Positions 13,071 through 27,082 of a stretch of 64,000 bases of DNA are shown in pieces; positions within the stretch are counted from its first letter, which is position 1; every line of letters starts with the position of its first letter. This stretch comes from Pseudobdellovibrionaceae bacterium (GTDB lineage: Bacteria > Bdellovibrionota > Bdellovibrionia > Bdellovibrionales > Bdellovibrionaceae). The stretch is from positions 1-64,000 of the forward strand of contig JAEUWH010000110.1 of NCBI GenBank assembly GCA_016785955.1, in the 5' to 3' direction. The translations under genes were made by a program, and so were the position numbers. The notes under the pieces were generated by a model that worked only from the letters and a program-made list of their open reading frames with translations, made no database searches and had not been told where the DNA came from.

Positions 13071-13224
13071 AGCTTTTTCACGCACGCAAATTTCTTTTGT
13101 ATTTACGCATTAAGTTATCGAAAAATTTATCCAATTTTGGATTGCTCTCCTTTTGGAAATTAGGAAAAATCAATTTGGTCGAATCGGTTCAATTGCATTC
13201 GGCCGGTCACTTACGGAGGACTCT

Positions 13225-14355
13225 GTGAAAAAAATTATGATCATTAACTGGATCATCGCGACAGCATTTATTCTTTCATCATGCACTAAAAAAGAAGACG
13301 TCATCTTGATCGGTGAATACGGTTCACTGACAGGCGACGATGCCACTTTTGGTATTTCTACCAATAAAGGTATCAAAATGGCGTTTGATGAAATCAATGC
13401 TAAGGGCGGGATCAAAGGTAAAAAAATCAAACTGATTACGGAAGACAATCAGGGGAAAAATGAAGAGACGGCAAAAGTCGTTAATCGTTTGATCACTCAG
13501 GATAAAATTGTGGCCCTGATCGGTGAAGTCGCATCGGCTCGTTCAATGGTGGCCGCCCCCATTGCGCAAAAGTACGGCATTCCGATGGTTTCTCCGAGTT
13601 CGACAAATCCAAAGGTCACTCGAGAAGGTGATTTTATTTTCCGTGTTTGCTTCCTGGACCCCTTTCAAGGTTTAGTGATGGCCAAGTTCGCTTATGAACA
13701 TTTGAAAGTTAAAAAAGCCGCTATTTTCAGAAAAAATGGCGACACTTACAGTGAAGGTTTAGCAGACGTTTTTGCTTCGGAATTTAAAAAAATGGGTGGC
13801 GAGATCGTCATCGATATTCAATATCAACCTAAAGACATCGACTTCAAGGCTCAGCTCTCTGAAATCAAAGCTAAAAAGCCTGAAGTTATTTTTGTTCCTG
13901 GCTATTACAGTGATGCCGGAAATATTGCAAAACAAGCAAAACAAATTGAATTAAAAGCCACGCTATTAGGTGGAGATGGTTGGGATTCTCCTAAATTGCA
14001 CGAGATCGGACAGGATGCCATCAATGGTCAGTATTTTTCGAATCATTACACAACTGAATCAACAGATCCCATCGTCGTCGAGTTTATTAAAAAATTTAAA
14101 GCTCGTTACAACGACGAAGTACCAGATGGTCTAGCCGCTTTAGGTTACGATGCCGCTCGCGTGGTGGCCGAAGCCATCGAGCGCGCAGCAGAAATCAAAC
14201 CAAAAATGATTCGTGATGAAATTGCGAAAACAAAAGACTTTGCGGGCGTCACTGGAAAAATCTCGATCAACGCCGAGAGAAATGCAGTCAAAAGTGCAGT
14301 TGTTGTCCAGGTTGAAAACGAAAAAAGAAAATATGTGACAACAATTAGTCCCTAG
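13225..14355 (+). CDS. livJ: Branched-chain amino acid ABC transporter, substrate-binding lipoprotein
   Basis: Start at the GTG at 13225, just after CGGAGGA; the open frame extends further upstream but without family character. The product begins with a lipoprotein signal (ILSSC lipobox), so it is anchored in the membrane facing the periplasm. The mature part has the type I periplasmic binding fold: GEYGSLTGDDATFGISTNKG, then FDEINAKGGIKGKKIKLI, and VIFVPGYYSDAGNIAKQAK. It captures Leu/Ile/Val or related amino acids for the transporter encoded next. livJ and livK are not separable by eye. Confidence 0.93.
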   Translation: MKKIMIINWIIATAFILSSCTKKEDVILIGEYGSLTGDDATFGISTNKGIKMAFDEINAKGGIKGKKIKLITEDNQGKNEETAKVVNRLITQDKIVALIGEVASARSMVAAPIAQKYGIPMVSPSSTNPKVTREGDFIFRVCFLDPFQGLVMAKFAYEHLKVKKAAIFRKNGDTYSEGLADVFASEFKKMGGEIVIDIQYQPKDIDFKAQLSEIKAKKPEVIFVPGYYSDAGNIAKQAKQIELKATLLGGDGWDSPKLHEIGQDAINGQYFSNHYTTESTDPIVVEFIKKFKARYNDEVPDGLAALGYDAARVVAEAIERAAEIKPKMIRDEIAKTKDFAGVTGKISINAERNAVKSAVVVQVENEKRKYVTTISP

Positions 14356-14369
14356 GACATGATTGTTCT

Positions 14370-15272
14370 ATGGAAGAACTGCTGCAGCATTTGATTAATG
14401 GTCTGAGTCTTGGAAGTATTTACGCCCTGATCGCATTAGGATACACAATGGTTTATGGTATCCTGCAAATGATTAACTTCGCCCATTCAGAAGTTTATAT
14501 GATGGGCGCCTTCTTTGCCTACTTTTCTGCTAAATATTTAAATCTCGCGGCGAACCCTGGTTTTGGTTCGCTGGCGATTGTTCTGGTGATCACGATGGCG
14601 TTATGCAGTCTGCTGGCGTTGACGATCGAAAAATTTGCCTACCGTCCACTTAGAAAAGCTCCTAAATTGAATGTTTTGATTACGGCGATTGGTGTGAGCT
14701 TGTTTCTGCAATATTTTGCACAAATCGTTTTCGGTGCTGACCCAAAAGTATTTCCGACTTTGATTGAAGACCAATTACTGTTCACGATCGCGGGCGCGCC
14801 GATTAAATCATTCGATGTAACCATTTTGATTGTCAGTTTGTTTTCAATGGGAACGTTGCATTTTTTGGTTTACCACACCAAGTTGGGTCAAGCGATGAGA
14901 GCCGTCAGTCATAATGCGGCCGTGGCGTCCATTCTGGGAGTCAACGTATCTCGAGTGATCGCCTACACATTTATTATTGGCTCCTCGCTGGCGGGTATCG
15001 GGGCTATTTTGGTGGGAATTAAATATCAAAAAATTGAACCGATGATGGGCACCATGATCGGCTTAAAAGCATTCGTGGCAGCCGTACTGGGCGGCATCGG
15101 CAGTATTGCGGGTGCGGTGACTGGTGGTTTGATTCTAGGTATTTCGGAAATTTTAGTTGTGGTTTATGGGTCGTCTCAGTACCGAGATGCCTTAGCGTTT
15201 TTAATTTTGATCGTTATTCTTTTAGTTAAACCAGCAGGTATGTTTGGTAAAAACAGAATTGAAAAGGTATAA
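14370..15272 (+). CDS. livH: Branched-chain amino acid ABC transporter permease LivH
   Basis: 300 residues with about eight membrane segments. LINGLSLGSIYALIALGYTMVYGIL at the N-terminus and the EAA-like loop AVLGGIGSIAGAVTGGLILG near the C-terminus are LivH hallmarks. It pairs with LivM to form the inner-membrane channel. It lies 14 bases after the binding protein and its stop directly abuts the livM start. Confidence 0.95.
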   Translation: MEELLQHLINGLSLGSIYALIALGYTMVYGILQMINFAHSEVYMMGAFFAYFSAKYLNLAANPGFGSLAIVLVITMALCSLLALTIEKFAYRPLRKAPKLNVLITAIGVSLFLQYFAQIVFGADPKVFPTLIEDQLLFTIAGAPIKSFDVTILIVSLFSMGTLHFLVYHTKLGQAMRAVSHNAAVASILGVNVSRVIAYTFIIGSSLAGIGAILVGIKYQKIEPMMGTMIGLKAFVAAVLGGIGSIAGAVTGGLILGISEILVVVYGSSQYRDALAFLILIVILLVKPAGMFGKNRIEKV

Positions 15273-16280
15273 ATGAAAGCACTAAAAATTCCTCTCATCG
15301 CGGCGGTCGGGATCATTGCCATTGCTTCGCTTTTGGGTCTTCTGACTAATCCGTATATTCAGCTTATTATTTTGTTTCTTTTTATTAATTCTATCATGGG
15401 CATGAGTTTGAATCTGGTTAATGGTTATACGGGACAATTCTCGTTAGGTCATGCCGGCTTCGTCGCCGTCGGTGCTTATTTCACTGCGATCATGACCACC
15501 AAGTTCCCAGTTCCGGCTGGTCTATTGAGTATTCCTTATTTTGTGTTGATCAGCCTGGGCGGCGGTCTGGTTGCCAGTATGTTTGGTTACATCGTTGGCT
15601 TACCTTCTTTGCGATTGAAAGGTGATTACCTTGCTATTGTTACATTAGGCTTTGGTGAAATTATCCGCGTGAGTTTGAATAACATCAGTTATTTTGGAGG
15701 CGCGTTGGGTGTCTCTTCAGTGCCTTCACTTCCTGAAATTGATCTCGGTGGATTTGTGATTTCCTCGTTTATTACCTCGGTGGCGTTTGGCACGTTCTGG
15801 GCGTTGATTTGCTTCTTCGTTATTTGGCGTTTACTGAAATCCAGCCACGGTCGTTGTTTCTTGAGTGTTCGCGAAGACGAGATTGCGGCCGAGGCCATGG
15901 GTATCAACACCACAAAAACCAAAGTCCAAGCTTTTGTTGTTTCCAGCTTTTTCGCCGGTATTTCCGGAGCTTTGTTTGCACATTTCACAAATTACATCAG
16001 TCCCGCCAGTTTTACTTTTCTGATGAGCATCGATGCCGTCATCATCGTCGTACTTGGTGGTATGGGCAGCATGACTGGTTGTATTACATCCGCATTTATC
16101 ATCACGCTGCTTCCCGAGATTTTACGTTCCTTGAAAGATTACACGGGCGGGATTGATTTCCGTATGATCATTTATTCACTGGCTTTGATTTTAATCATGA
16201 TCCTCAGACCACAAGGTTTGTTTGGTGACCGAGAAATCACTTCATTATGGAGAAAGAAGAATGTCGGCTCCTCTACTTGA
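15273..16280 (+). CDS. livM: Branched-chain amino acid ABC transporter permease LivM
   Basis: 335 residues, multi-pass. NLVNGYTGQFSLGHAGFVAVGAY and VVLGGMGSMTGCITSAFII are the LivM motifs, and YIVGLPSLRLKGDYLAIVTLGFGEI is also conserved. Second channel subunit next to LivH. Its end overlaps the livG start by 20 bases, implying coupled translation. Confidence 0.95.
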   Translation: MKALKIPLIAAVGIIAIASLLGLLTNPYIQLIILFLFINSIMGMSLNLVNGYTGQFSLGHAGFVAVGAYFTAIMTTKFPVPAGLLSIPYFVLISLGGGLVASMFGYIVGLPSLRLKGDYLAIVTLGFGEIIRVSLNNISYFGGALGVSSVPSLPEIDLGGFVISSFITSVAFGTFWALICFFVIWRLLKSSHGRCFLSVREDEIAAEAMGINTTKTKVQAFVVSSFFAGISGALFAHFTNYISPASFTFLMSIDAVIIVVLGGMGSMTGCITSAFIITLLPEILRSLKDYTGGIDFRMIIYSLALILIMILRPQGLFGDREITSLWRKKNVGSST

Positions 16281-17046
16281 TGTGCGCAACGTCACCATGC
16301 AGTTTGGTGGCTTGAAAGCGGTTGAAGGATTGTCTTTTCAAGTTCACAAAGGACAACTGGCCGGTTTAATTGGACCTAATGGTGCCGGTAAAACCACGGT
16401 ATTTAACATGTTGACGGGCGTATACACTCCGACTTCGGGTGAAGTCGCATTTGAATCCAAGAAAGTCAGCGGGCTTAAGCCGTACGAAATTTCCAGCCAT
16501 GGGTTGACTCGCACATTTCAAAATATTCGTTTGTTTAAAAACTTGACGGTTTTAGATAACGTTCTGATCGCCAACCACCAGCATGTTCAGTACACATGGG
16601 CGGATGCCTTACTGCTGAGTCAAGCCTTTGAAAGCGAAGAAAAGAAAATCACCGAAAAAGCCAAAGAGATTCTGCATATTTTTGGTCTATCCAACAAGTT
16701 CCATGAAAAATCATCGAATCTGCCTTATGGTGAACAACGCAAGCTCGAGATCGTTCGGGCATTAATGACCGAGCCGAAAATGATTCTCTTGGATGAACCG
16801 GCGGCGGGCATGAATCACTCCGAAACACACTCGTTGATGGAACTGATTGCTAAAATTCGCAAGGAATTTAATCTTACCGTGTTGTTAATCGAGCACGATA
16901 TGAAGTTAGTTATGGGTATTTGCGAGCAAATCTTTGTATTGGATCATGGTGTGAAAATCGAAGAGGGCGCTCCAGAGAAAATTAAATCATCAAAAAAAGT
17001 CATCGAGGCCTACCTGGGTGTCGATGCGGAATCCGAGTCACACTAA
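16261..17046 (+). CDS. livG: Branched-chain amino acid ABC transporter ATPase LivG
   Basis: The start at 16261 (after GGAGAAAGA) gives the usual N-terminus APLLDVRNVTMQFGGLKAV; the open frame upstream lies inside livM. Walker A is GPNGAGKTT, the signature is LPYGEQRKLEI and Walker B is MILLDEPAAGM followed by the switch His in LLIEHDM. NIRLFKNLTVLDNVLIA is typical of LivG. It powers uptake through LivHM together with LivF. Confidence 0.95.
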   Translation: MSAPLLDVRNVTMQFGGLKAVEGLSFQVHKGQLAGLIGPNGAGKTTVFNMLTGVYTPTSGEVAFESKKVSGLKPYEISSHGLTRTFQNIRLFKNLTVLDNVLIANHQHVQYTWADALLLSQAFESEEKKITEKAKEILHIFGLSNKFHEKSSNLPYGEQRKLEIVRALMTEPKMILLDEPAAGMNHSETHSLMELIAKIRKEFNLTVLLIEHDMKLVMGICEQIFVLDHGVKIEEGAPEKIKSSKKVIEAYLGVDAESESH

Positions 17047-17747
17047 TGTTGAAAGTTACAAATTTAAAAGTTAAATATGGCGCGATTCAAGGTTTAAAAG
17101 GAATTTCATTTCATATTAACAAAGGTGAAATCGTTTCGTTAATCGGCTCTAACGGGGCTGGCAAAACAACGACGCTAAGAGCTTTGTCCGGCATCGTCGA
17201 AAGCCAAGGCGAAATTGTCTTTAAAGATAAAAATATCTCTACCGTACCCTCACACTTGCGAGTCACCTTGGGAATCGCACAATCACCCGAAGGTCGAGGA
17301 ATTTTTCCGTCGATGACAGTGCAAGAAAATTTGGAGCTGGGCAGCTACAGTCGTTCGGACAAAGATCAAATCGCAAAAGATTACGAGCGTTGTTTGCAAT
17401 TGTTTCCGCGAGTGAAAGAACGTCTGTGGCAATTAGCCGGCACACTTTCCGGGGGAGAGCAGCAAATGGTTTCCATTTGCCGAGCGATAATGTGTAAACC
17501 AGATTTGTTATTGCTTGATGAACCCTCACTGGGCCTGGCTCCTTTGATTGTCAGTCAGATTTTCGAAATTGTGAAACAATTAAATTCCGAAGGAATGACG
17601 ATCTTGCTGGTCGAGCAAAATGCGAAACAGTCATTGATGATCTCCCATCGCGCCTATGTTTTGGAAACAGGCCTTATCACCTTGGAAGGTGCTGGCAGTG
17701 ACCTGTTAAAAAATGATGAAGTTCGACGCTCGTATTTGGGAATTTAG
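17046..17747 (+). CDS. livF: Branched-chain amino acid ABC transporter ATPase LivF
   Basis: 233 residues. Walker A GSNGAGKTT, signature LSGGEQQMV, Walker B LLLLDEPSLGLAP, and the LivF-specific QSPEGRGIFPSMTVQENLELG are present. Its ATG shares one base with the livG stop (TAATG). Last gene of the five-gene importer; no clear hairpin terminator follows. Confidence 0.95.
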   Translation: MLKVTNLKVKYGAIQGLKGISFHINKGEIVSLIGSNGAGKTTTLRALSGIVESQGEIVFKDKNISTVPSHLRVTLGIAQSPEGRGIFPSMTVQENLELGSYSRSDKDQIAKDYERCLQLFPRVKERLWQLAGTLSGGEQQMVSICRAIMCKPDLLLLDEPSLGLAPLIVSQIFEIVKQLNSEGMTILLVEQNAKQSLMISHRAYVLETGLITLEGAGSDLLKNDEVRRSYLGI

Positions 17748-18721: not shown

Positions 18722-19258
18722 CTAACGTACGCATGTACATTGTCCAAGGGGTTGCGGGCTGAGTGACACCGATGGCGATACGATGACGATTACACTTCCT
18801 CGTTGTGCCCAATATTTTTTGAAATCTGTAACTCGCAACGTATTATCTTTTTGCTCGCGCGCTAGCCAAGGATCCATCAAAGTAATATGGTCATTACGAA
18901 TATCTTTCACTAGACTGTAGTGACCGGCGTCCTCGTCCCACCACGTAACGAAAACCACTTGATTCTGACAAATCGCTTTTTCAATCTCGTAAAATTCCAC
19001 CCCGCGCTTAAGATACGCATGAAAGCCAAAGACGATCGCCAGTTCTACAATATTTTCGGGTGGAGTATAGCCTAATTCGAATGTTTTCAGCAGTTTGGCA
19101 AAATAAATTTCTCCTAAAGATTGTCCTCGAAAAAAACGAAACATACTTTCAAAACAAGCAGCCCCACAGGTAAAATCCAAAGTCTGCGCAATTTGTGGCA
19201 AATGAATAGTCAAATGCTGGCAACTAGACATGCACAACGTTCTCATTGTTTGTGTCAC
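18722..19258 (-). CDS. C39-like cysteine peptidase-fold protein next to the hydrazine cluster
   Basis: Up to 178 residues. PQIAQTLDFTCGAACFESMF resembles the C39 bacteriocin-leader peptidase active site (Gln, then DxxCGAA with the Cys), and GHYSLVKDIRNDHITLMDPW supplies the His and Asp. There is no ABC transporter part. The start is unsettled: GTG at 19258, or ATG at 19246 or 19231, all inside the end of the upstream exporter gene, so the two are translationally linked. In this setting it may be an amidase or acyl-shifting enzyme on the cluster product rather than a leader peptidase; that is inference. Confidence 0.6.
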   Translation of the reverse strand: MTQTMRTLCMSSCQHLTIHLPQIAQTLDFTCGAACFESMFRFFRGQSLGEIYFAKLLKTFELGYTPPENIVELAIVFGFHAYLKRGVEFYEIEKAICQNQVVFVTWWDEDAGHYSLVKDIRNDHITLMDPWLAREQKDNTLRVTDFKKYWAQRGSVIVIVSPSVSLSPQPLGQCTCVR

Positions 19259-20141
19259 TATCTATGTCATTCTCGGCTTCATTCTTTGGCGCCACTTTAT
19301 TGTTGTTCAAAATAAAGTATGTACACGCCACAAATGCAATAGACAAAATAAAATGAGACACCTGCAATGGCTCTTTAAATATAAGCCACTCGAGAGGCTG
19401 AATGACAATCGACGCTAGTAACGTAGGAAACTCGGCAGTCGCGATATCAACCAGCGCGTACAGTTTCATGGTCGCATAGTAGGCGCCAAACATCCCGATT
19501 CCAGAAACAATTCCCACCCACAGCGCCTGATGATTCCACCCCGACGCCACTGAGGTGTCAGGTATTTTTTGCGCTAATCCATAGGCCATCAATGCCAGTG
19601 CCGGCGTCAGAATAGTGATCCCTTGATTTTCTTCGTTCATACTTTTTTTAATAAAGGCATATCCAAAACACAAAAGAAACAAACCAAACAAAAGCGTTCC
19701 CAATCCCAAAATCCAATTTGGCTCGGACTGAATTTTAAGCGTATACAACACCAGAAAAACAATCGAAATAAATGACAAAACCTTGGCGCGCACCGAGGAC
19801 GGCTGACCAACCAACGAACCCAAAATGACCAGCATCGGAACATCGACATTCGAAATCACCGCCACGGTCGAAGCCGAAAGCCAATTATAACTTAAAGAAA
19901 ATGCGGTCAATGCCATTCCCGCCACCAAAGCACGGATGGTCTGTGTTCCAATAGACTTAGGAACTAAAGATAGTTTTTTAACGCGGGCAAAGACCACCAC
20001 AAGCCCCAAACAAACAAGGCCCCGCAAAATCAAAGTCTCTGAAAATATCATCCCGCTGGTCGCCAAACAGCGAATAGCAAGCCCCATCAAAGAAATTGAT
20101 GTAATCAATATGAAAGACCAAAAATAGAACAGAACACTCAT
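19224..20141 (-). CDS. EamA/DMT-family membrane exporter
   Basis: 305 residues with about ten membrane helices in two repeats, typical of drug/metabolite transporters of the EamA type (first repeat ends around LSASTVAVISNVDVPMLVILG; the second has ALVDIATAEFPTLLASIVIQPLEW). GAGG precedes the ATG. The acidic tail (NEAENDIDSDTNNE) is cytoplasmic. Placed between the LysR gene and the C39-like gene, it is a candidate exporter of the product made by the divergent operon, or a self-protection pump. Confidence 0.8.
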   Translation of the reverse strand: MSVLFYFWSFILITSISLMGLAIRCLATSGMIFSETLILRGLVCLGLVVVFARVKKLSLVPKSIGTQTIRALVAGMALTAFSLSYNWLSASTVAVISNVDVPMLVILGSLVGQPSSVRAKVLSFISIVFLVLYTLKIQSEPNWILGLGTLLFGLFLLCFGYAFIKKSMNEENQGITILTPALALMAYGLAQKIPDTSVASGWNHQALWVGIVSGIGMFGAYYATMKLYALVDIATAEFPTLLASIVIQPLEWLIFKEPLQVSHFILSIAFVACTYFILNNNKVAPKNEAENDIDSDTNNENVVHV

Positions 20142-20215
20142 ACAAAACCTCGGTTACAATCAAAGGCACTGTACAAGAATTAAAATATAAATAAAATTGA
20201 TGAATTTATAACGAA

Positions 20216-20250
20216 ATCGTTCTGTTTTTCTAAATGATCGCCATTTATTT
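20216..20250. promoter_or_regulatory. Operator candidate upstream of the exporter gene
   Basis: ATCGTTCTGTTTTT followed by AAATGATC and ATTTATTT. The first block matches ATCATTCTGTTTTT in the intergenic region on the far side of the LysR gene (21193-21206) with one difference, and a GATC + ATTT/TATT block follows in both, at different spacing. This is what a shared LysR target would look like, but AT-rich similarity by chance is possible. Confidence 0.35.
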
Positions 20251-20267
20251 AAATGAGTTCCATGCGA

Positions 20268-21164
20268 CTAAGTTTTAGCGGCGGCCGCGGCGACAATGCG
20301 CTCTTGTACGCGAGCAATCAATAAATCCAAAGCCTGCGTGCGAATCCGATACTTTGGCCAAACCGCCACGATCTTATAGTCCGCCTCCCATCCCCGCGGA
20401 ATGTACGTTTCGATTTCTAATCGATGACTATAAGCCAAGAAGTCGGGTAACAACGTCCACGCCTCACTGTATTTCAACGCCTTGATAGCCACATCATAAC
20501 TATCAAACATATTAGCTATTTTAGGCTGAATACGAAGACGTTGAAATGCGGGATGGTTTTCACAGTTCTCAATCCCTTGAGCGGCCAAAGCCGCCAGCAT
20601 AGGATAGCGCTCTAGATCCTCCAGACGACGGTCTTTCAAGAAAGGATGTTTTTTTCTGAAGCAAATGACTAATCGCCCTTGATGAAGAACCTCTTGTTCG
20701 TGGTTAGGGCCCGACTGAGGGGAAAAGCAAATTCCCAGATCGACCTCTCCTGTACCTGCGCGCGCCAATACTTCGCCCGAGCGTAAAGAATGCAATGTCG
20801 AAGTCAATGCCGGATGCTGCTGCTGAAGATCCATCCAGATCGGAGTGAGAAATTCTGAACACAGTGTGTGCGTAGCCGCCAATCGATAATGGCCGCGCAT
20901 CGTAGAACTTTCAGAAGACAGCTCTTCACGGATGCGTCCGGCTTCGGTCAAAAGGAACTCGGCACGATCTAACAAAAGCTTTCCATGTTGGGTCAGCTTG
21001 ATCTGACGACCCATTTTTTCAAAAAGTACCCGTCCGAATTCTTCCTCTAAAGCCGCAATACTGTGGCTGATCGCACTGGGGGAAATATTCAGAAATCGCG
21101 CGGCTTGACCGATATGCTGACGACGAGCCGTTTCTACGAAATATTGTAGTTGATCGAATTTCAT
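20268..21164 (-). CDS. LysR-type transcriptional regulator
   Basis: About 298 residues. The start at 21164 follows CAGGAG and gives the standard N-terminus MKFDQLQYFVETARRQHIGQ; the helix-turn-helix is AARFLNISPSAISHSIAALEEEFG. The rest is a type II periplasmic-binding-like effector domain. It is divergent from the six-gene cluster 126 bases away and precedes the exporter gene, the classic placement of a LysR activator whose ligand is a pathway intermediate. The C-terminus ends in an Ala-rich AAAAAKT. Confidence 0.92.
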   Translation of the reverse strand: MKFDQLQYFVETARRQHIGQAARFLNISPSAISHSIAALEEEFGRVLFEKMGRQIKLTQHGKLLLDRAEFLLTEAGRIREELSSESSTMRGHYRLAATHTLCSEFLTPIWMDLQQQHPALTSTLHSLRSGEVLARAGTGEVDLGICFSPQSGPNHEQEVLHQGRLVICFRKKHPFLKDRRLEDLERYPMLAALAAQGIENCENHPAFQRLRIQPKIANMFDSYDVAIKALKYSEAWTLLPDFLAYSHRLEIETYIPRGWEADYKIVAVWPKYRIRTQALDLLIARVQERIVAAAAAKT

Positions 21165-21289
21165 GACAACTCCTGTCGCCGATCTTTTATCAATCATTCT
21201 GTTTTTTTCAACAAAAAATATGAAAATAGATCATTTTTATTCATCTAAAAAATAAGCTAGTTTCCACTCTAAGAAAAACAGGAGCCGAT
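21165..21289. promoter_or_regulatory. Divergent promoter/operator region, LysR versus biosynthetic operon
   Basis: AT-rich region with a dyad AAAAT-AGATC-ATTTT at 21223-21237 that also gives a T-N11-A LysR box (T21221, A21233). TTCTGTTTTT at 21197-21206 is shared with the exporter's upstream region. No clear -35/-10 pair can be fixed by eye. ACAGGAG before 21290 is the ribosome binding site of the first biosynthetic gene. Confidence 0.5.
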
Positions 21290-22987
21290 ATGAACATCGC
21301 ATTTATGAATCAAACCTCTTTGAATGAAGCCTATGGCATATTGTGCCGTGCCGTTTCCTGGCCCTATTCCAAAGCGTCCATGATGCCGACCTTCTGCCAA
21401 GTTCCTTTGAATGGTGCGACGACGACTCACTCGCATTTTGAACCGGAAATTTTTTTCATTACCAAAGGAGACGGCGAAATAACGATCGGTCCAGAAAGTC
21501 AGATCGTTTCAATGGGCGATTTAATTCACATTCCGACCAACACCCCGCATACGATTAAAAATATCGGAAACCAAGCACTCGAGTTTCTTTCTATCTACAG
21601 CGAAGACTTTGAAATCCCATTACTGCCCCAACAGGTGTTGATAACGGCGGCGCCGCCAACACCCAACGGACCATTGCATTTGGGGCATATCAGTGGTCCC
21701 TACCTAGCCAGCGACATCGTGTCTCGTTATTTACGACAACATTCGTCGGATGTTTTTTCTCATAGTGGCACGGACGATCATCAAAACTATGTGTCCGAAA
21801 AATCTCACGCATTGAAAATAAATGTCGATGCGTTTCAAAAAACACAACGCCAGCGAATTCAGCGTGGATTAGAAAATCTGAGTATACACTTCGATGAATT
21901 TATCGAACCCAAATCAAGTCATCATTATCAACATAAAGTGTTGAACTTCGTTGAACGAACCCTTCAATCGGGAATCATTGAAAAAGAAGTCTTGACGTTA
22001 CCTCACTGCCCGGACTGCGAGCTGACATTAATAGACTCTCTCGCCGATGGAATCTGCCCCGTCTGCCATTCTCCTAGCCGCGGTGGTTGTGAGTCGTGTG
22101 GTCTGGTAGTACCACCTCATCACCTACTGAACACGCATTGTGGTCGCTGCGGACAAATCGCTGATAGAATAACCGAAGAGGTTTACACGTTTAATGTCGG
22201 GCAGCACTTTCCACTTATTGAAAATGAACTCGACAGGCTGGCTTTGCCACCCCGTCTGCGCGAACTCGTTTCCAAAGTAAAGGCCCATCCTGACTATAAA
22301 GTTTTAGTCTCACACCCAAGCAACAATCATTTAGGACTAAAACTGCCCGGCTCGAATCAACATATTCACGTTTGGTTTGAAATGGCGGCTCACTATGAAT
22401 CATTCGCACACAGAGACGAAACATGGATACACTTCTTCGGGTTTGACAACAGCTTTCACTATCTTATCTTTATTCCCGCACTTCTAAAAGCGATGAGCCC
22501 CAAAGCCAAACTGCCGGACGTGGCCGTGGTGAATGAATTTCTTCTTTTAGATGGGCTGAAGTTTTCAACCAGCCGCAATCACGCGATCTGGGCCGACGAG
22601 TTTTCTGGCGATGCGGACGCACTTCGCTTGTACTTATGCGCACATCGACCGGCGAGGCAAACAAGTAATTTTTCAACCGAGGAATTTCAAGTTTTTTCCA
22701 CCCTGCTGAGCAAGCAAATCCGTCTCATCCAAGATCGTTTTCAAAATGTGAAACCTCACACCGGCAAATTTACATCCAGCGCCGACCAAGACGTTCAACG
22801 ATTTATTCGAGACATGGCAAACGCTATGTCACCCCGAACTTTGGATTTACGCCAAGCTGCACGTCGCATTCTTTTATTTATAGACCATACCATTCACGGC
22901 TTTGGAAATGCGGCCGATGACAAACACCGCATCCAAACACTTGCCAACCAGTTGACGCCATTTATGCCCTCAACGAGGATCTTATGA
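21290..22987 (+). CDS. Cupin-MetRS fusion, putative hydrazine synthetase (Spb40-like)
   Basis: 565 residues in two domains. Residues about 35-105 form a cupin with a metal site (H47, H49, E53, H87 in THSHFEPE and PTNTPHTI). From about 116 the protein is a class I methionyl-tRNA-synthetase-like domain: HIGH motif as PLHLGH (130-133), four CxxC pairs of a double zinc knuckle (C240/243, 256/259, 267/270, 284/287) and a KMSKS-like KFSTS (424-428). Only about 135 residues follow, so a full anticodon-binding part seems reduced. Such cupin-MetRS fusions are the hydrazine synthetases that join N6-hydroxylysine and glycine through an N-N bond (Spb40 in s56-p1 biosynthesis). Its two partner enzymes are the next two genes; the stop overlaps the next start (ATGA). 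Confidence 0.88.
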   Translation: MNIAFMNQTSLNEAYGILCRAVSWPYSKASMMPTFCQVPLNGATTTHSHFEPEIFFITKGDGEITIGPESQIVSMGDLIHIPTNTPHTIKNIGNQALEFLSIYSEDFEIPLLPQQVLITAAPPTPNGPLHLGHISGPYLASDIVSRYLRQHSSDVFSHSGTDDHQNYVSEKSHALKINVDAFQKTQRQRIQRGLENLSIHFDEFIEPKSSHHYQHKVLNFVERTLQSGIIEKEVLTLPHCPDCELTLIDSLADGICPVCHSPSRGGCESCGLVVPPHHLLNTHCGRCGQIADRITEEVYTFNVGQHFPLIENELDRLALPPRLRELVSKVKAHPDYKVLVSHPSNNHLGLKLPGSNQHIHVWFEMAAHYESFAHRDETWIHFFGFDNSFHYLIFIPALLKAMSPKAKLPDVAVVNEFLLLDGLKFSTSRNHAIWADEFSGDADALRLYLCAHRPARQTSNFSTEEFQVFSTLLSKQIRLIQDRFQNVKPHTGKFTSSADQDVQRFIRDMANAMSPRTLDLRQAARRILLFIDHTIHGFGNAADDKHRIQTLANQLTPFMPSTRIL

Positions 22988-24033
22988 ACGAATACGAGTT
23001 TGACATTGTCATCATTGGCGGTGGCTGTATTGGCAGCAGCATTGCCTTTCATCTGGCTCAAAAAGGCTTTAGACACTTTGCCATTGTCGATAGCGGACGT
23101 AAAAATCTGAGTGCCACTTCGCAATCTGGGGGGCTACTGCGCGTGTTTCACGAAAATACCGATCACGTCGACCTGGCATTACGCCACCACGAACTTAAGA
23201 AAACTCTGCAAACCCAAAACATCTTGCTCGAAACAAACACGCCAAACGGCAGCCTGTATTTTTTTGATCGAAGACGTTTTAACGACTACACGCTCAACTT
23301 GCACAAGATGGAAGCCGCTGGATATCCGTTTGAAATCGTAACGGCAAAAACCGGCGCTACACGATTTCCTATGTTCGCATGGAACGCAGACTCCTGGGCG
23401 GTCTATGAACCGCTGGGAAATCATGCTTCCGCCAACCAATTTTGTGATGACCTGCTTGACTACAGCCAACACAGCGGACTGACCATGATAGACAACTTTG
23501 AAGTCGAGCGAATTTGTTTTTTCCGCGATCGATATCGTCTTTTCAATCGAGCACACTCTGTTTTCGCAAAGACATTGATATTCGCAGGCGGGGCGCGATC
23601 GATCCCTCACCTTCACGAGCTTGGGATCGGTCACTCGCTGAAAGCCCAAGAACTAAAAGTCTATAAGTCTAAGGAGAGCCTAAGTACGTTGAATATTTCG
23701 AACGCCGCTGAAAATAGTGCGATTCCAAATTTTTTTGATCGTGAAAAATTGCAATACAGCGGCGTCGTGGGCCAGCAAAGGTTGATCGTTTCGGATTTAT
23801 CTTTGGAAAAACTGAATCATTGTTTTGACCCCGAACGTTTTCAGGAAATCTGGGCCCTGGACTGCTATGCCCCACAACGCCTAGGCTATGCGGGATTTCT
23901 GGCGGGACACCCTCGTCTGCTGTTAGCCACCGGATGGGGCGGCACCGCTTTTAAATTTTCGCTTGAAATTGGACATCGAATTGCCCAGGCCCTTGAAAAT
24001 AAACCCATTGAAAGGAGCATTGCTCATGCGTAA
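22984..24033 (+). CDS. DAO-family FAD-dependent oxidase (Spb39-like)
   Basis: 349 residues. DIVIIGGGCIGSSIAFHLA at the N-terminus is the FAD dinucleotide-binding fold (12-17 GGGCIG) and LLLATGWGGTAFKFSLEIG closes the FAD site at the C-terminus, as in glycine/sarcosine/D-amino acid oxidases. In the s56-p1 pathway the equivalent enzyme (Spb39) oxidatively cleaves N6-(carboxymethylamino)lysine, releasing hydrazinoacetic acid and 2-aminoadipate semialdehyde. Placement between the cupin-MetRS and lysine-hydroxylase-like genes argues for that reaction here. Overlaps its neighbours by 4 and 8 bases. Confidence 0.82.
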   Translation: MNEYEFDIVIIGGGCIGSSIAFHLAQKGFRHFAIVDSGRKNLSATSQSGGLLRVFHENTDHVDLALRHHELKKTLQTQNILLETNTPNGSLYFFDRRRFNDYTLNLHKMEAAGYPFEIVTAKTGATRFPMFAWNADSWAVYEPLGNHASANQFCDDLLDYSQHSGLTMIDNFEVERICFFRDRYRLFNRAHSVFAKTLIFAGGARSIPHLHELGIGHSLKAQELKVYKSKESLSTLNISNAAENSAIPNFFDREKLQYSGVVGQQRLIVSDLSLEKLNHCFDPERFQEIWALDCYAPQRLGYAGFLAGHPRLLLATGWGGTAFKFSLEIGHRIAQALENKPIERSIAHA

Positions 24034-25354
24034 TCAACCACGAAAAACTTTAGCCGTGATCGGCGCCGGCCCTAAAGGCATTGCGATCGCCGTCAAAGCC
24101 AAAGTCTTAGAGGAATTTGGCTTTCCTGTGGATCGAGTGGTTCTGATCGAGAAAAATAATGTCGCCGCTCACTGGTCCGGTGAATTTGGATACACTAACG
24201 GCGAAATGAAATTGGGCACATCACCAGAAAAAGATGTCGTGTTTCCTCTGGAAACGGACGTCGGTGATCCTGTGCTGAATCAACGTGTGCGCCAAAGACT
24301 TTTGCAATTCACTTGGATTTCCTTTCTGGTAGATACCGCCCAATACTCGGACTGGGTCGATCGCGGGCGACCGGCGCCTTGTCATCTCTTCTGGGCAGAT
24401 TATCTGCGCTGGGTGTCCGTACAATTGGGACCACAAATTAGTATCGTCACCGGACACGTGATCGAAGCCGATTTGAATTCTCAAGGAAACCAATGGGAGT
24501 TGAAACTGAAAGACTCTAAGCCGTCTATTTTTGCGGATCGTCTGATGCTGACCGGGCCGGGACAAACCCGCTTGAACTTCATTCGAGACACGTCCAAAAC
24601 ATTACCCCCTCAGTGTTATGATTTAGAGTCTTTCTGGTCCGCCATTAAAAATAAAACCCTTAACCCAGTTGGAAAACTGGCCGTCATCGGAGCCGGTGAA
24701 AATGCCGCTTCGGCCCTGTTGGCCTTGTCCCAATATGCGGTCAATATGCCGGTGGATGTGATTTCACCGAAAGGATTTATCTCGACCCGAGCCGAAAGTT
24801 TTTACGAAAACCAAATATACAGTCAGCCAGATCGAAATCGCTGGATGACTTTGGATCCTAAGGATCGAATCGACTTTATCGAGCGCACAGACCTGGGTGT
24901 GTTTTCAGTACACGCCATGAGTCTATTGAATGAACAAGCACGACATCAAATTATTCCCGGGCGAGTCACTGATCTGACGACCACCTTGCAAGGCCTTGAA
25001 ATCCAGATCGAGTATGCGGGGCAAAAAACGCAGCGCCAATATGATCATGTCGTCATTGCCAGTGGTTTTGATCAGACCGCGACGCTGAAAAAATTATTAT
25101 CGCCGCGCGCACTACGCCGTGTGGAGTTGGCCTTAGGTGAAGAACTCACAACGTCAAACTTGATGGCTTCCATTGAACGCGATTTATCGGTCAAGAATGT
25201 CACTCCGTCCCTGCATCTGCCGATGTTGGCGGGATTGAGTCAAGGTCCCGGCTTTGCTAATCTGAGCTGCCTGGGACGACTTTCTGATCGCGTGGTGATT
25301 CCCGCGGAAAAAATAGTTTCACAATCTGTACGTATCGTCGAGCAGGCACTATGA
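24026..25354 (+). CDS. Lysine N6-monooxygenase-like flavoprotein (Spb38-like)
   Basis: The start at 24026 is chosen for AAAGGAG and because VIGAGPKGIAIA (FAD site, 11-22) then follows directly. A second Rossmann motif, AVIGAGENAASALLAL (about 219-234), is for NADPH, and VIASGFDQTATLKKLL near the C-terminus matches the ATGY-like segment of the SidA/IucD/PvdA N-hydroxylase family. About 442 residues is the normal length. It would hydroxylate the side-chain nitrogen of lysine (or ornithine) to supply N6-hydroxylysine to the hydrazine synthetase. Substrate preference cannot be read by eye. Its end overlaps the next start by 4 bases. Confidence 0.78.
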   Translation: MRNQPRKTLAVIGAGPKGIAIAVKAKVLEEFGFPVDRVVLIEKNNVAAHWSGEFGYTNGEMKLGTSPEKDVVFPLETDVGDPVLNQRVRQRLLQFTWISFLVDTAQYSDWVDRGRPAPCHLFWADYLRWVSVQLGPQISIVTGHVIEADLNSQGNQWELKLKDSKPSIFADRLMLTGPGQTRLNFIRDTSKTLPPQCYDLESFWSAIKNKTLNPVGKLAVIGAGENAASALLALSQYAVNMPVDVISPKGFISTRAESFYENQIYSQPDRNRWMTLDPKDRIDFIERTDLGVFSVHAMSLLNEQARHQIIPGRVTDLTTTLQGLEIQIEYAGQKTQRQYDHVVIASGFDQTATLKKLLSPRALRRVELALGEELTTSNLMASIERDLSVKNVTPSLHLPMLAGLSQGPGFANLSCLGRLSDRVVIPAEKIVSQSVRIVEQAL

Positions 25355-25980
25355 AACACGAAATTGCTTTTGTTGACAAAAATCATCAACATGAAATCGA
25401 ACAATTGCGCAGGCAAGAGTATGCGCAAGCCAGCGGCTACTCGTTAGATTTAAATTCTCTGCGTTGGCAAACTTCGGACGATGAAAGTTTCGTGATGGTC
25501 GCCAAAGATAACGGTACCATTGTCGCCACCATGAGAGGGGAGGTTATTTTAGATCCCTCTGTATTGGAAAAGAAATTGGAATGTCCGTGGGATTTCGAAA
25601 CACCACGGCAACTGCCGGTGCTGCTGCTGAGTCGGGCGGCAACCTTGAAATCATACCAGGCACAAGGACTGAATCTGGTGATGAGATATTGGTTTCTAAA
25701 ACTTGCCGAGCACTATCGTATTCCCATGGTGGTGGGAACTTTTGTTACCGGGTCACCACGACAAAACACTCTGCTGTCCATGGGATATCAGTTTCATGAA
25801 AATAAACAGGGCTGGCAACAGTCAACATATCGATCGCATCGCGACGTCATCGTGGCCGTGCTAGATATGGAAAACAAGCCACAGGCATTTACCTATTGCG
25901 AAAACAAATTTGTAACCAATAAAAATCCGTATGCGCTGTCCACGGATTTTCCAGAAATAAAATATGTGAGGAGTTTATGA
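25351..25980 (+). CDS. GNAT-like acyltransferase of the hydrazine cluster
   Basis: 209 residues, cytoplasmic. The order of segments fits a GNAT fold: a hydrophobic strand with charged start (FVMVAKDNGTIVATMRGEVI), a central strand (LPVLLLSRAATLKSYQAQG with a Q-x-Q-G acyl-CoA-loop-like turn), a helix (LNLVMRYWFLKLAEHY), then MVVGTFVTGSPRQNTLLSMGYQ. It is nearest in feel to N-acyl amino acid synthase/GNAT proteins. It may acylate the hydrazine or an amino group of the product. ATGA overlaps on both sides bind it to the operon. No homologue in known hydrazinoacetate clusters is claimed. Confidence 0.6.
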   Translation: MKHEIAFVDKNHQHEIEQLRRQEYAQASGYSLDLNSLRWQTSDDESFVMVAKDNGTIVATMRGEVILDPSVLEKKLECPWDFETPRQLPVLLLSRAATLKSYQAQGLNLVMRYWFLKLAEHYRIPMVVGTFVTGSPRQNTLLSMGYQFHENKQGWQQSTYRSHRDVIVAVLDMENKPQAFTYCENKFVTNKNPYALSTDFPEIKYVRSL

Positions 25981-26759
25981 ATACGGGATCTTATCAATTC
26001 GAAAAATTAGAAAGCCGGCACCACGAGGGAACGATGCTAGCGGAACGGGCCAACATGCGACTCGAAGACTTCCCCAACTTGCTTGTACGTCACCGTTTTC
26101 CCACAGACGGACATATCCTAGAGGTCGGCACCGCTCAGGGCATTCGCGCCAAAGTCATCGCCGAAAAATTTCCTCGGACACAAACAATCGGAATTGATCG
26201 CAGTGCAGAATTGATGGCCGTCGACTCGACACCGAATTTAAAATTTCAGTACGCCGATGTTTACGATCTGCCTTTTCTGGATAACACGTTCGACTTTGTC
26301 TACGCGCGCCTGGTGTTCATGCATCTCAGTGATCCGCTGAAAGCACTAGCCAATATTAAACGTGTGCTCAAACCTGGCGGCCGAATTTTGATCGAAGACG
26401 CTGATCGCGATTGCATGTTCTTTGAACCGGCACCACCCTCATTTCCCGATTTCTGGAAAAAAGTTCAGGAAGGCCAACGCCGCTGGGGCGGTGACCCCAA
26501 TGTAGGCCGTAAACTGGCGCCGTTACTGAAACAGGCCGGGTTTACCGGCATTCAAATCGAGACCCAACCCATCATCGGTGGCGGACTCGAGATAGATTTC
26601 CTTGTGCGAACGCTGATGCCCAGCCTGAATGTTTATTTGTCTCCCGAAGATCGAGATCAAGGTAATAACGCAATCAAAGATCTAGCCGATTTGGCCAACA
26701 CCAACCCACTGGCCACGTTTTACCATTTCTGGTTTGTCGTTAGCGGGGAAAAAAAATGA
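25977..26759 (+). CDS. Class I SAM-dependent methyltransferase of the hydrazine cluster
   Basis: 260 residues. Motif I is ILEVGTAQGIRAKVI (48-62), motif II TIGIDRSAELM with the ribose-binding Asp, motif IV FDFVYARLVFMHLSDPLKAL, and VLKPGGRILIEDAD follows. This is a UbiE/type-11-like methyltransferase acting on a small molecule. In this operon it may N- or O-methylate the hydrazine product; the target is inference. It overlaps both neighbours by four bases, so it is made with the pathway enzymes. Confidence 0.85.
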   Translation: MNTGSYQFEKLESRHHEGTMLAERANMRLEDFPNLLVRHRFPTDGHILEVGTAQGIRAKVIAEKFPRTQTIGIDRSAELMAVDSTPNLKFQYADVYDLPFLDNTFDFVYARLVFMHLSDPLKALANIKRVLKPGGRILIEDADRDCMFFEPAPPSFPDFWKKVQEGQRRWGGDPNVGRKLAPLLKQAGFTGIQIETQPIIGGGLEIDFLVRTLMPSLNVYLSPEDRDQGNNAIKDLADLANTNPLATFYHFWFVVSGEKK

Positions 26760-27082
26760 TTTCCAGCACCGAACTCAAACGCCACCCCACATATTTCATG
26801 GACCAATCAGAACCCGATCAAACCACCGCCATCGCCGCTGAATCGAAAGATCAAAGCATCCAAACCGGTGTATGGGAAAGTGGTCCCGGCGTGCTGACAC
26901 TGGAATTTAAATGGTCCGAGACCGTTTACATACTGGATGGGTATGCACAGATAAAGAATTTGAAAACAGGTGAGTTTTTCACTTTAAAAAAAGACACGTT
27001 GGCTCTGTTTGAAAAAGGAACAACGTGGTCATGGCATGTTCCCTGGAAATTGAAAAAGGTTTTTACAATTATAGACTACTGA
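26756..27082 (+). CDS. Small stand-alone cupin protein, last gene of the cluster
   Basis: 108 residues, a single cupin barrel resembling the cupin_3 (EutQ/ureidoglycine) group: GVWESGPGVLTLEFKWSETVYILDGYAQIKN, then FEKGTTWSWHVPWKLKKVFTI. Only a few metal ligands are evident (E of SETVYIL, H of SWHVPW), so catalysis is uncertain. It could stabilise or isomerise a labile intermediate. Its start overlaps the methyltransferase stop (ATGA) and its end overlaps the converging gene by 14 bases, which marks the cluster border. Confidence 0.72.
   Translation: MISSTELKRHPTYFMDQSEPDQTTAIAAESKDQSIQTGVWESGPGVLTLEFKWSETVYILDGYAQIKNLKTGEFFTLKKDTLALFEKGTTWSWHVPWKLKKVFTIIDY

Follow-up and report, generated by a model that had tools for sequence, protein, structure and literature searches.

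A probable hydrazine biosynthesis cluster with a new set of partner enzymes in a Bdellovibrio-like bacterium

Hydrazine synthetases form a known and widespread protein family (PMC8664883, PMC11705231, PMC2922099), and gene sets of this type were called widespread in bacteria in 2010 (PMC2922099) and again in 2021 (PMC8664883); a survey published in 2026 puts the number of related clusters in Actinobacteria and Proteobacteria at 129 (PMC13061610). In the sets for s56-p1 (Spb38/39/40), triacsin (Tri26-28), azaserine (AzsL/M/N) and N-nitroglycine (NngK/L/M), a protein fusing a cupin to a methionyl-tRNA synthetase (MetRS)-like domain is encoded beside an N-hydroxylase and a DAO-superfamily oxidase, and fuller clusters of these types have a GNAT nearby. 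Neighbourhoods of a paralogous MetRS, a cupin and a lysine N6-monooxygenase, in some cases joined by a GNAT and a papain-fold transacylase, were described in PMC2922099, which proposed a Met-Lys dipeptide and from whose text Bdellovibrio is absent. Clusters reported from Bdellovibrionota comprise nonribosomal peptide synthetase (NRPS), polyketide and ribosomally synthesized, post-translationally modified peptide types, with hydrazine not mentioned (PMC8067016), and our literature search, which left most subscription papers outside its reach, returned no paper linking Bdellovibrio with a hydrazine pathway. Here we describe a locus resembling these systems in a 64,000-nucleotide stretch of DNA (the window) from a Pseudobdellovibrionaceae bacterium (GCA_016785955.1). 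The window is part of contig C5 of a 4.34 Mb genome, 99.9% complete, whose placement as Bdellovibrio-like is upheld by relatives of the same genus and family filed as metagenome-assembled genomes (MAGs) of Bdellovibrionaceae or Bdellovibrio sp.

A first-pass annotation of the window had pointed to a hydrazine cassette at 21290-25354, made of three adjacent, overlapping genes on one strand for a cupin-MetRS fusion, a DAO-type FAD oxidase and a lysine N6-hydroxylase-like flavoprotein. The genes are real, they lie where it placed them, and Pfam and the match to PDB 4d7e bear out their families (table 1). The limits were drawn too narrowly, since the whole cluster spans 18722-27082. A six-gene plus-strand operon (21290-27082) encodes the fusion protein, here HydS, followed by the DAO, the N-hydroxylase (NMO), a GNAT, a methyltransferase and a small EutQ-like cupin, with neighbouring genes overlapping by 4-8 bases; a conserved divergent arm of three genes, for a LysR regulator, an EamA-type transporter and a C39-like cysteine peptidase, runs back to 18722. 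Taken together, the predicted proteins make this a probable hydrazine biosynthesis cluster. What is new is the partner enzyme set and the host lineage, the family of the N-N-joining enzyme being already known.

HydS consists of an N-terminal cupin fused to a MetRS-like domain (Pfam). All four zinc ligands of the cupin are present (H47, H49, E53 and H87), are invariant across its clade and correspond to His50, His52, Glu56 (the essential Glu) and His90 of PyrN, where mutation impairs or abolishes activity (PMC8664883). Metal-ligand positions match, and the same MetRS-like/cupin chemistry, with ATP-dependent N-N bond formation, is predicted, as in the glutamate-using hydrazine synthetases of PyrN and the Rhodococcus jostii RHS1 system (PMC8664883); the R. 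jostii pathway has a saccharopine dehydrogenase, where the present cluster has a DAO. We aligned HydS with 14 other hydrazine-synthetase-type proteins and nine housekeeping MetRSs. HydS carries HLGH at 130-133 and, at 424-429, KFSTSR, which it has in common with the hydrazine-synthetase-type proteins, whereas the housekeeping enzymes carry KMSKS; PTPNG replaces PYANG in HydS and in all but one of the synthetase-type proteins. The forms PNG(x)LH and KFSTSR are found in the compared hydrazine synthetases and not in the housekeeping MetRSs, and extend to the standalone MetRS-like protein of R. jostii, which acts with N6-hydroxylysine and glutamate (PMC8664883).

HydS groups in the tree with proteins of Bdellovibrionaceae and of three other MAGs, in a clade of 10 rows with 100/100 support. 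A second clade, equally well supported (100/100), holds the nine housekeeping MetRSs, and the MetRS part thus escapes the grouping with housekeeping enzymes that the first-pass annotation had named as an objection. Deeper joins between the synthetase clades are weak, and the long branches of RHA1 and Kim5 are unsure. A full housekeeping MetRS, with anticodon- and tRNA-binding domains, is encoded elsewhere in the genome (contig C31), and a Pfam search of HydS gave no match to these domains. On the strength of tree placement and motifs, HydS is assigned by sequence to the hydrazine synthetases of the known family. The alignment also bears on its substrate. The R. jostii protein, a glutamate user, has Arg where HydS has Tyr391, and glutamate is therefore an unlikely substrate for HydS; we take this column to be that of His301 in the methionine pocket of Escherichia coli MetRS. 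Judged from pocket positions alone, the second amino acid might be glycine, alanine or another small neutral one, which is a guess.

The two flavoenzymes tell a different story from the synthetase. The first-pass annotation had called the three genes the full Spb40/39/38 set, and only the synthetase proved to be family-matched, in a comparison for which similarly laid-out plasmid relatives stood in for the sequences of Spb40, Tri28, PyrN, Apy9 and Por11 themselves. (Kitasatospora aureofaciens L041, tried as a positive control for triacsin, was unusable, having no NMO or DAO homologue adjoining.) The NMO matches NbtG, an L-Lys monooxygenase (PDB 4d7e), over nearly its full length (residues 7-425; phmmer E 9e-80), which settles the doubt whether it might fall outside the N-hydroxylase family; its Pfam support is modest (Lys_Orn_oxgnase, E 1e-8). 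By profile comparison (hhalign) it is closest to a Tsukamurella MbtG-type NMO adjoining an NRPS (E 3e-70, 40% identity) and reaches only E 1e-17 against NMOs encoded next to the synthetases of Streptomyces, Rhizobium, Klebsiella and Deinococcus, so that orthology with the Streptomyces/Rhizobium cluster enzymes was rejected. Its sequence thus places the NMO in the NbtG/MbtG lineage, one not seen beside the other synthetases examined, and the matches to NbtG and to the MbtG-type protein make N6-hydroxylation of lysine its likely activity. The homology to the enzymes of nocobactin and mycobactin synthesis is full-length, but the gene sits here in a hydrazine-type operon and not in an NRPS siderophore cluster. 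There is a biochemical precedent for such a combination: NbtG, replacing the Spb38-type enzyme, yielded hydrazinoacetic acid in vitro together with NngM and NngL (PMC13274452). The NMO gene is interrupted in two MAG loci (L028:7582-8959 and L036:7935-9430), where a frameshift or a sequencing error divides its reading frame in two.

The DAO departs likewise. Against the DAOs beside Streptomyces and Sinorhizobium synthetases its best BLAST E is 0.004 and hhalign gives 16% identity (E 3e-7); its C-terminal motif is FKF, versus YRLAP in those adjoining Streptomyces synthetases. On these grounds orthology with the Streptomyces/Rhizobium cluster oxidases was rejected, and tblastn of the DAO against plasmids gave no match. 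Foldseek places its AlphaFold model nearest to monomeric sarcosine oxidase (E 1e-21), followed by N-methyltryptophan oxidase and related secondary-amine oxidases. The sarcosine-oxidase branch oxidises secondary amines, a likeness that fits cleavage of a C-N bond beside a hydrazine, and the modelled fold leads us to expect this of the DAO with the hydrazine intermediate as its substrate. NMO and DAO thus probably act as functional equivalents of Spb38 and Spb39 drawn from other lineages. The first-pass proposal that lysine and glycine give hydrazinoacetic acid may hold but goes beyond what can be supported, as neither the amino acid nor the cleavage side can be read from sequence; Spb39 and its relative Apy10 cut opposite sides (PMC11705231). 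The reaction that defines an Spb39-type oxidase is cleavage of N6-(carboxymethylamino)lysine at its Cepsilon-N bond.

The three core genes recur together, in the same order, in at least nine other genomes (protein identity 36-69%), and chance is therefore excluded. When 60 genomes were searched, matches that span the cupin came from every one of the six genomes of the genus and from a single further genus of the family; the remaining matches cover the MetRS part only. Three more families of the phylum contribute HydS-linked loci (L082, L084 and L085), as do MAGs filed under Gammaproteobacteria, Proteobacteria and Deltaproteobacteria (L034-L036), the latter perhaps through transfer or mis-binning. 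Many complete genomes of another genus of the same family (g6) have no match to the GNAT marker. Sets of the same kind are present on plasmids of Rhizobium, Sinorhizobium, Pantoea, Klebsiella and Deinococcus, which, with the two reports of a widespread distribution cited above, contradicts the statement that almost all examples come from actinomycetes. On a plasmid of Rhizobium sp. Kim5 (L052:5415-9905), an NMO, a cupin and a MetRS-like protein are encoded between nodA and nodD2/nodD3, their position hinting at a symbiosis-linked N-N metabolite. At L083:7082-10719 (genome G252), C39, EamA, an N-terminally altered GNAT and a methyltransferase lie together with no HydS, DAO, NMO or LysR within 19 kb, an arrangement that may be due either to partial loss of the cluster or to the assembly.

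That the set forms a regulated cluster of its own, as first proposed, is borne out by the sister loci and by the region between the divergent genes. A motif, TTTTTTTCAAC...ATGAAAATAGATCATTTTTATTCAT, is recognisable across an alignment of 12 LysR-HydS spacers; its second half forms an imperfect inverted repeat, such as LysR-type operators are expected to have, and the motif is likely to be one. The LysR proteins themselves are 53-84% identical to their counterparts in related loci. EamA homologues (36-59% identity) adjoin the operon in those loci that extend far enough. EamA and C39 are one fused protein (DMT-C39) in sister genomes L026, L028 and L029, as are NMO and GNAT in L031, and these fusions link the accessory genes with the pathway. 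The methyltransferase was not seen in L034, L084 or L085 (L084 stops at a contig edge), and the small cupin, present in four loci only, is not core.

Outside clusters of this type the GNAT is all but absent. It was found in 20 of the 369 genomes of the phylum, weaker matches sitting in other contexts, and tblastn against plasmids gave no match. Profile comparison rejected orthology with the GNATs of Streptomyces/Rhizobium clusters. In a structure comparison of its confident model, FeeM (Z 15.5) ranks high, as do two acyl-homoserine-lactone synthases, BjaI (Z 15.0; Foldseek TM 0.69) and RpaI (Z about 15), which give the longest alignments, but ordinary GNATs tie with them; the Pfam FeeM profile reaches E 0.0045 at best among nine family members, below the cut-off. 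GNAT relatives at L086:1066-2398 and L087:6537-7906 adjoin a heme-oxygenase-like di-iron oxidase (Haem_oxygenas_2) and a divergent LysR, without HydS, a set that is possibly a second N-oxygenation pathway in Bdellovibrionota. Another distant relative lies at L088:5795-8874, with a DAHP synthase and a methyltransferase.

The sequence shows the gene content, the protein families, catalytic motifs that are intact, conservation, the layout of the operon and the fusions; the chemical steps, second amino acid, cleavage side and product that follow are proposals. The NbtG-type flavoenzyme would hydroxylate lysine at N6; the MetRS-like domain of HydS would adenylate a second amino acid and attach it as an ester to the N6-hydroxyl, which the zinc cupin would then rearrange into an N-N bond. 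The sarcosine-oxidase-like enzyme would next oxidise a C-N bond beside the hydrazine to give a free hydrazino acid, which would be hydrazinoacetic acid if the second amino acid were glycine and cleavage as in Spb39. The GNAT may acylate, and the methyltransferase methylate, the hydrazine or its carboxylate, after which EamA would export the product and the C39-like papain-fold domain hydrolyse or transfer the acyl group at the transporter, with LysR governing the operon through the conserved spacer site. Protection by acylation and release at export is a reasonable but inferred scheme, suggested by the fusions and by the GNATs and papain-fold transacylases noted in MetRS-paralogue neighbourhoods (PMC2922099). 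Our best reading of the product is an acylated and/or methylated, exported hydrazino acid. It should be small and not carrier-built, because 18722-27082, unlike the relatives L044, L048 and L049, encodes no AMP-ligase (AMP-binding enzyme), carrier protein, C45 peptidase or acyl-CoA dehydrogenase. The same lack, and that of a GNAT related to the one that succinylates hydrazinoacetic acid, sets the cluster apart from s56-p1-, triacsin- and azaserine-type systems, to which it adds the methyltransferase, the EamA exporter, the C39-like protein and LysR.

A different reading of the same genes is a hydroxamate or siderophore route, in which NMO and GNAT would make N6-acyl-N6-hydroxylysine as in mycobactin and HydS would merely ligate amino acids, following the dipeptide-ligase view of PMC2922099. 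The mycobactin/nocobactin lineage of the NMO, the NMO-GNAT fusion in one genome and the GNAT that adjoins such an NMO in the Tsukamurella NRPS locus all speak for it, yet the GNAT is not detectably related to the siderophore-type GNAT (Acetyltransf_8; hhalign probability 0.1%), HydS has an intact cupin of the N-N-forming type along with hydrazine-synthetase motifs, no NRPS was seen adjoining the operon, and it is hard to see what a C-N-cleaving DAO would do in such a route, which we accordingly consider improbable. Less probable still is a straight hydrazinoacetic acid pathway as for s56-p1, triacsin and azaserine, inherited as a single Spb38-39-40 cassette: the same three functional roles do share one operon with a GNAT, but NMO and DAO are of other lineages than in Spb38-type systems, the GNAT is unrelated to those linked to hydrazinoacetic acid (Acetyltransf_3; hhalign probability 0.4%), and the AMP-binding enzyme, carrier protein, C45 peptidase and acyl-CoA dehydrogenase of the relatives are missing. 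Finally, a duplicated or decaying MetRS beside unrelated flavoenzymes, with no dedicated metabolite, has nothing specific in its favour and is very hard to reconcile with intact zinc-ligand and ATP-site motifs and with synteny and a spacer motif kept across distant genomes.

Several points nevertheless weigh against hydrazine biosynthesis as set out above. The chemistry is predicted from sequences and models; DAO and NMO are not orthologous to Spb39/Spb38-type enzymes, so substrate and regiochemistry may differ, and the DAO model is of moderate quality only (pLDDT 78). No more than 1 Z unit separates FeeM, LuxI-type and ordinary GNATs, a spread too small to point to a class of acyl donor, the EamA profile match is weak (E 0.0046) and the role given to C39 is a guess from fusion and precedent. 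A bolder idea, and in our judgement a long shot, is that Bdellovibrio-like bacteria make a diffusible signal or toxin of a new class: a LuxI/FeeM-fold acyltransferase would act on a hydrazine core to give an N-acyl hydrazino acid, which would be methylated, exported and recognised by the divergent LysR. If the hydrazine assignment is true, such operons have come together on at least two occasions, a single N-N-forming enzyme being teamed with different N-hydroxylases and flavin oxidases, and predatory Bdellovibrionota, for which literature searches gave no N-N metabolite, would have a genus-wide candidate reactive small molecule. The compact nine-gene locus, with its clean control region, could readily be moved to a laboratory host for testing.

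Table 1. Features of the cluster, with positions in the window.
Feature	Position	Strand	Evidence
C39-like papain-fold cysteine peptidase/transacylase-type protein	18722..19258	-	Pfam Peptidase_C39 E 9e-10
EamA/DMT-type membrane transporter, presumed exporter	19224..20141	-	weak Pfam EamA E 0.0046
LysR-type regulator	20268..21164	-	Pfam HTH_1 E 1e-18, LysR_substrate E 3e-27
Conserved spacer motif TTTTTTTCAAC...ATGAAAATAGATCATTTTTATTCAT, likely LysR operator	21200..21244		alignment of 12 LysR-HydS spacers
Cupin-MetRS hydrazine synthetase (HydS), by sequence	21290..22987	+	Pfam Cupin_2 E 1e-13, tRNA-synt_1g E 3e-50
DAO-superfamily FAD oxidase, monomeric-sarcosine-oxidase-like	22984..24033	+	Pfam DAO E 1e-23; AlphaFold/Foldseek
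NbtG/MbtG-lineage lysine N6-hydroxylase (NMO), likely	24026..25354	+	phmmer 4d7e E 9e-80; Pfam Lys_Orn_oxgnase E 1e-8
GNAT-fold acyltransferase with FeeM/LuxI-like features	25351..25980	+	AlphaFold pLDDT 89; structure comparison
S-adenosylmethionine (SAM)-dependent methyltransferase	25977..26759	+	Pfam Methyltransf_11 E 3e-20; 54-69% identity in sister loci
Small EutQ-like cupin, accessory	26756..27082	+	Pfam Cupin_3 E 4e-10; homologues in L027, L028, L029

Upstream of the cluster, at 13153-17747 of the window, lies an operon for a branched-chain amino-acid-type ABC transporter, not found beside the cluster in sister genomes. Two starts were set by homologues: that of LysR at 21164, which is Met-12 of the listed open reading frame, and that of the NMO at the in-frame ATG 24026, near which homologues begin, the listed frame opening with TTG at 23963. 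In the C39-like protein, the candidate catalytic residues are the Cys in TCGAAC, the His in GHYSLVK and the Asp in LMDPW.

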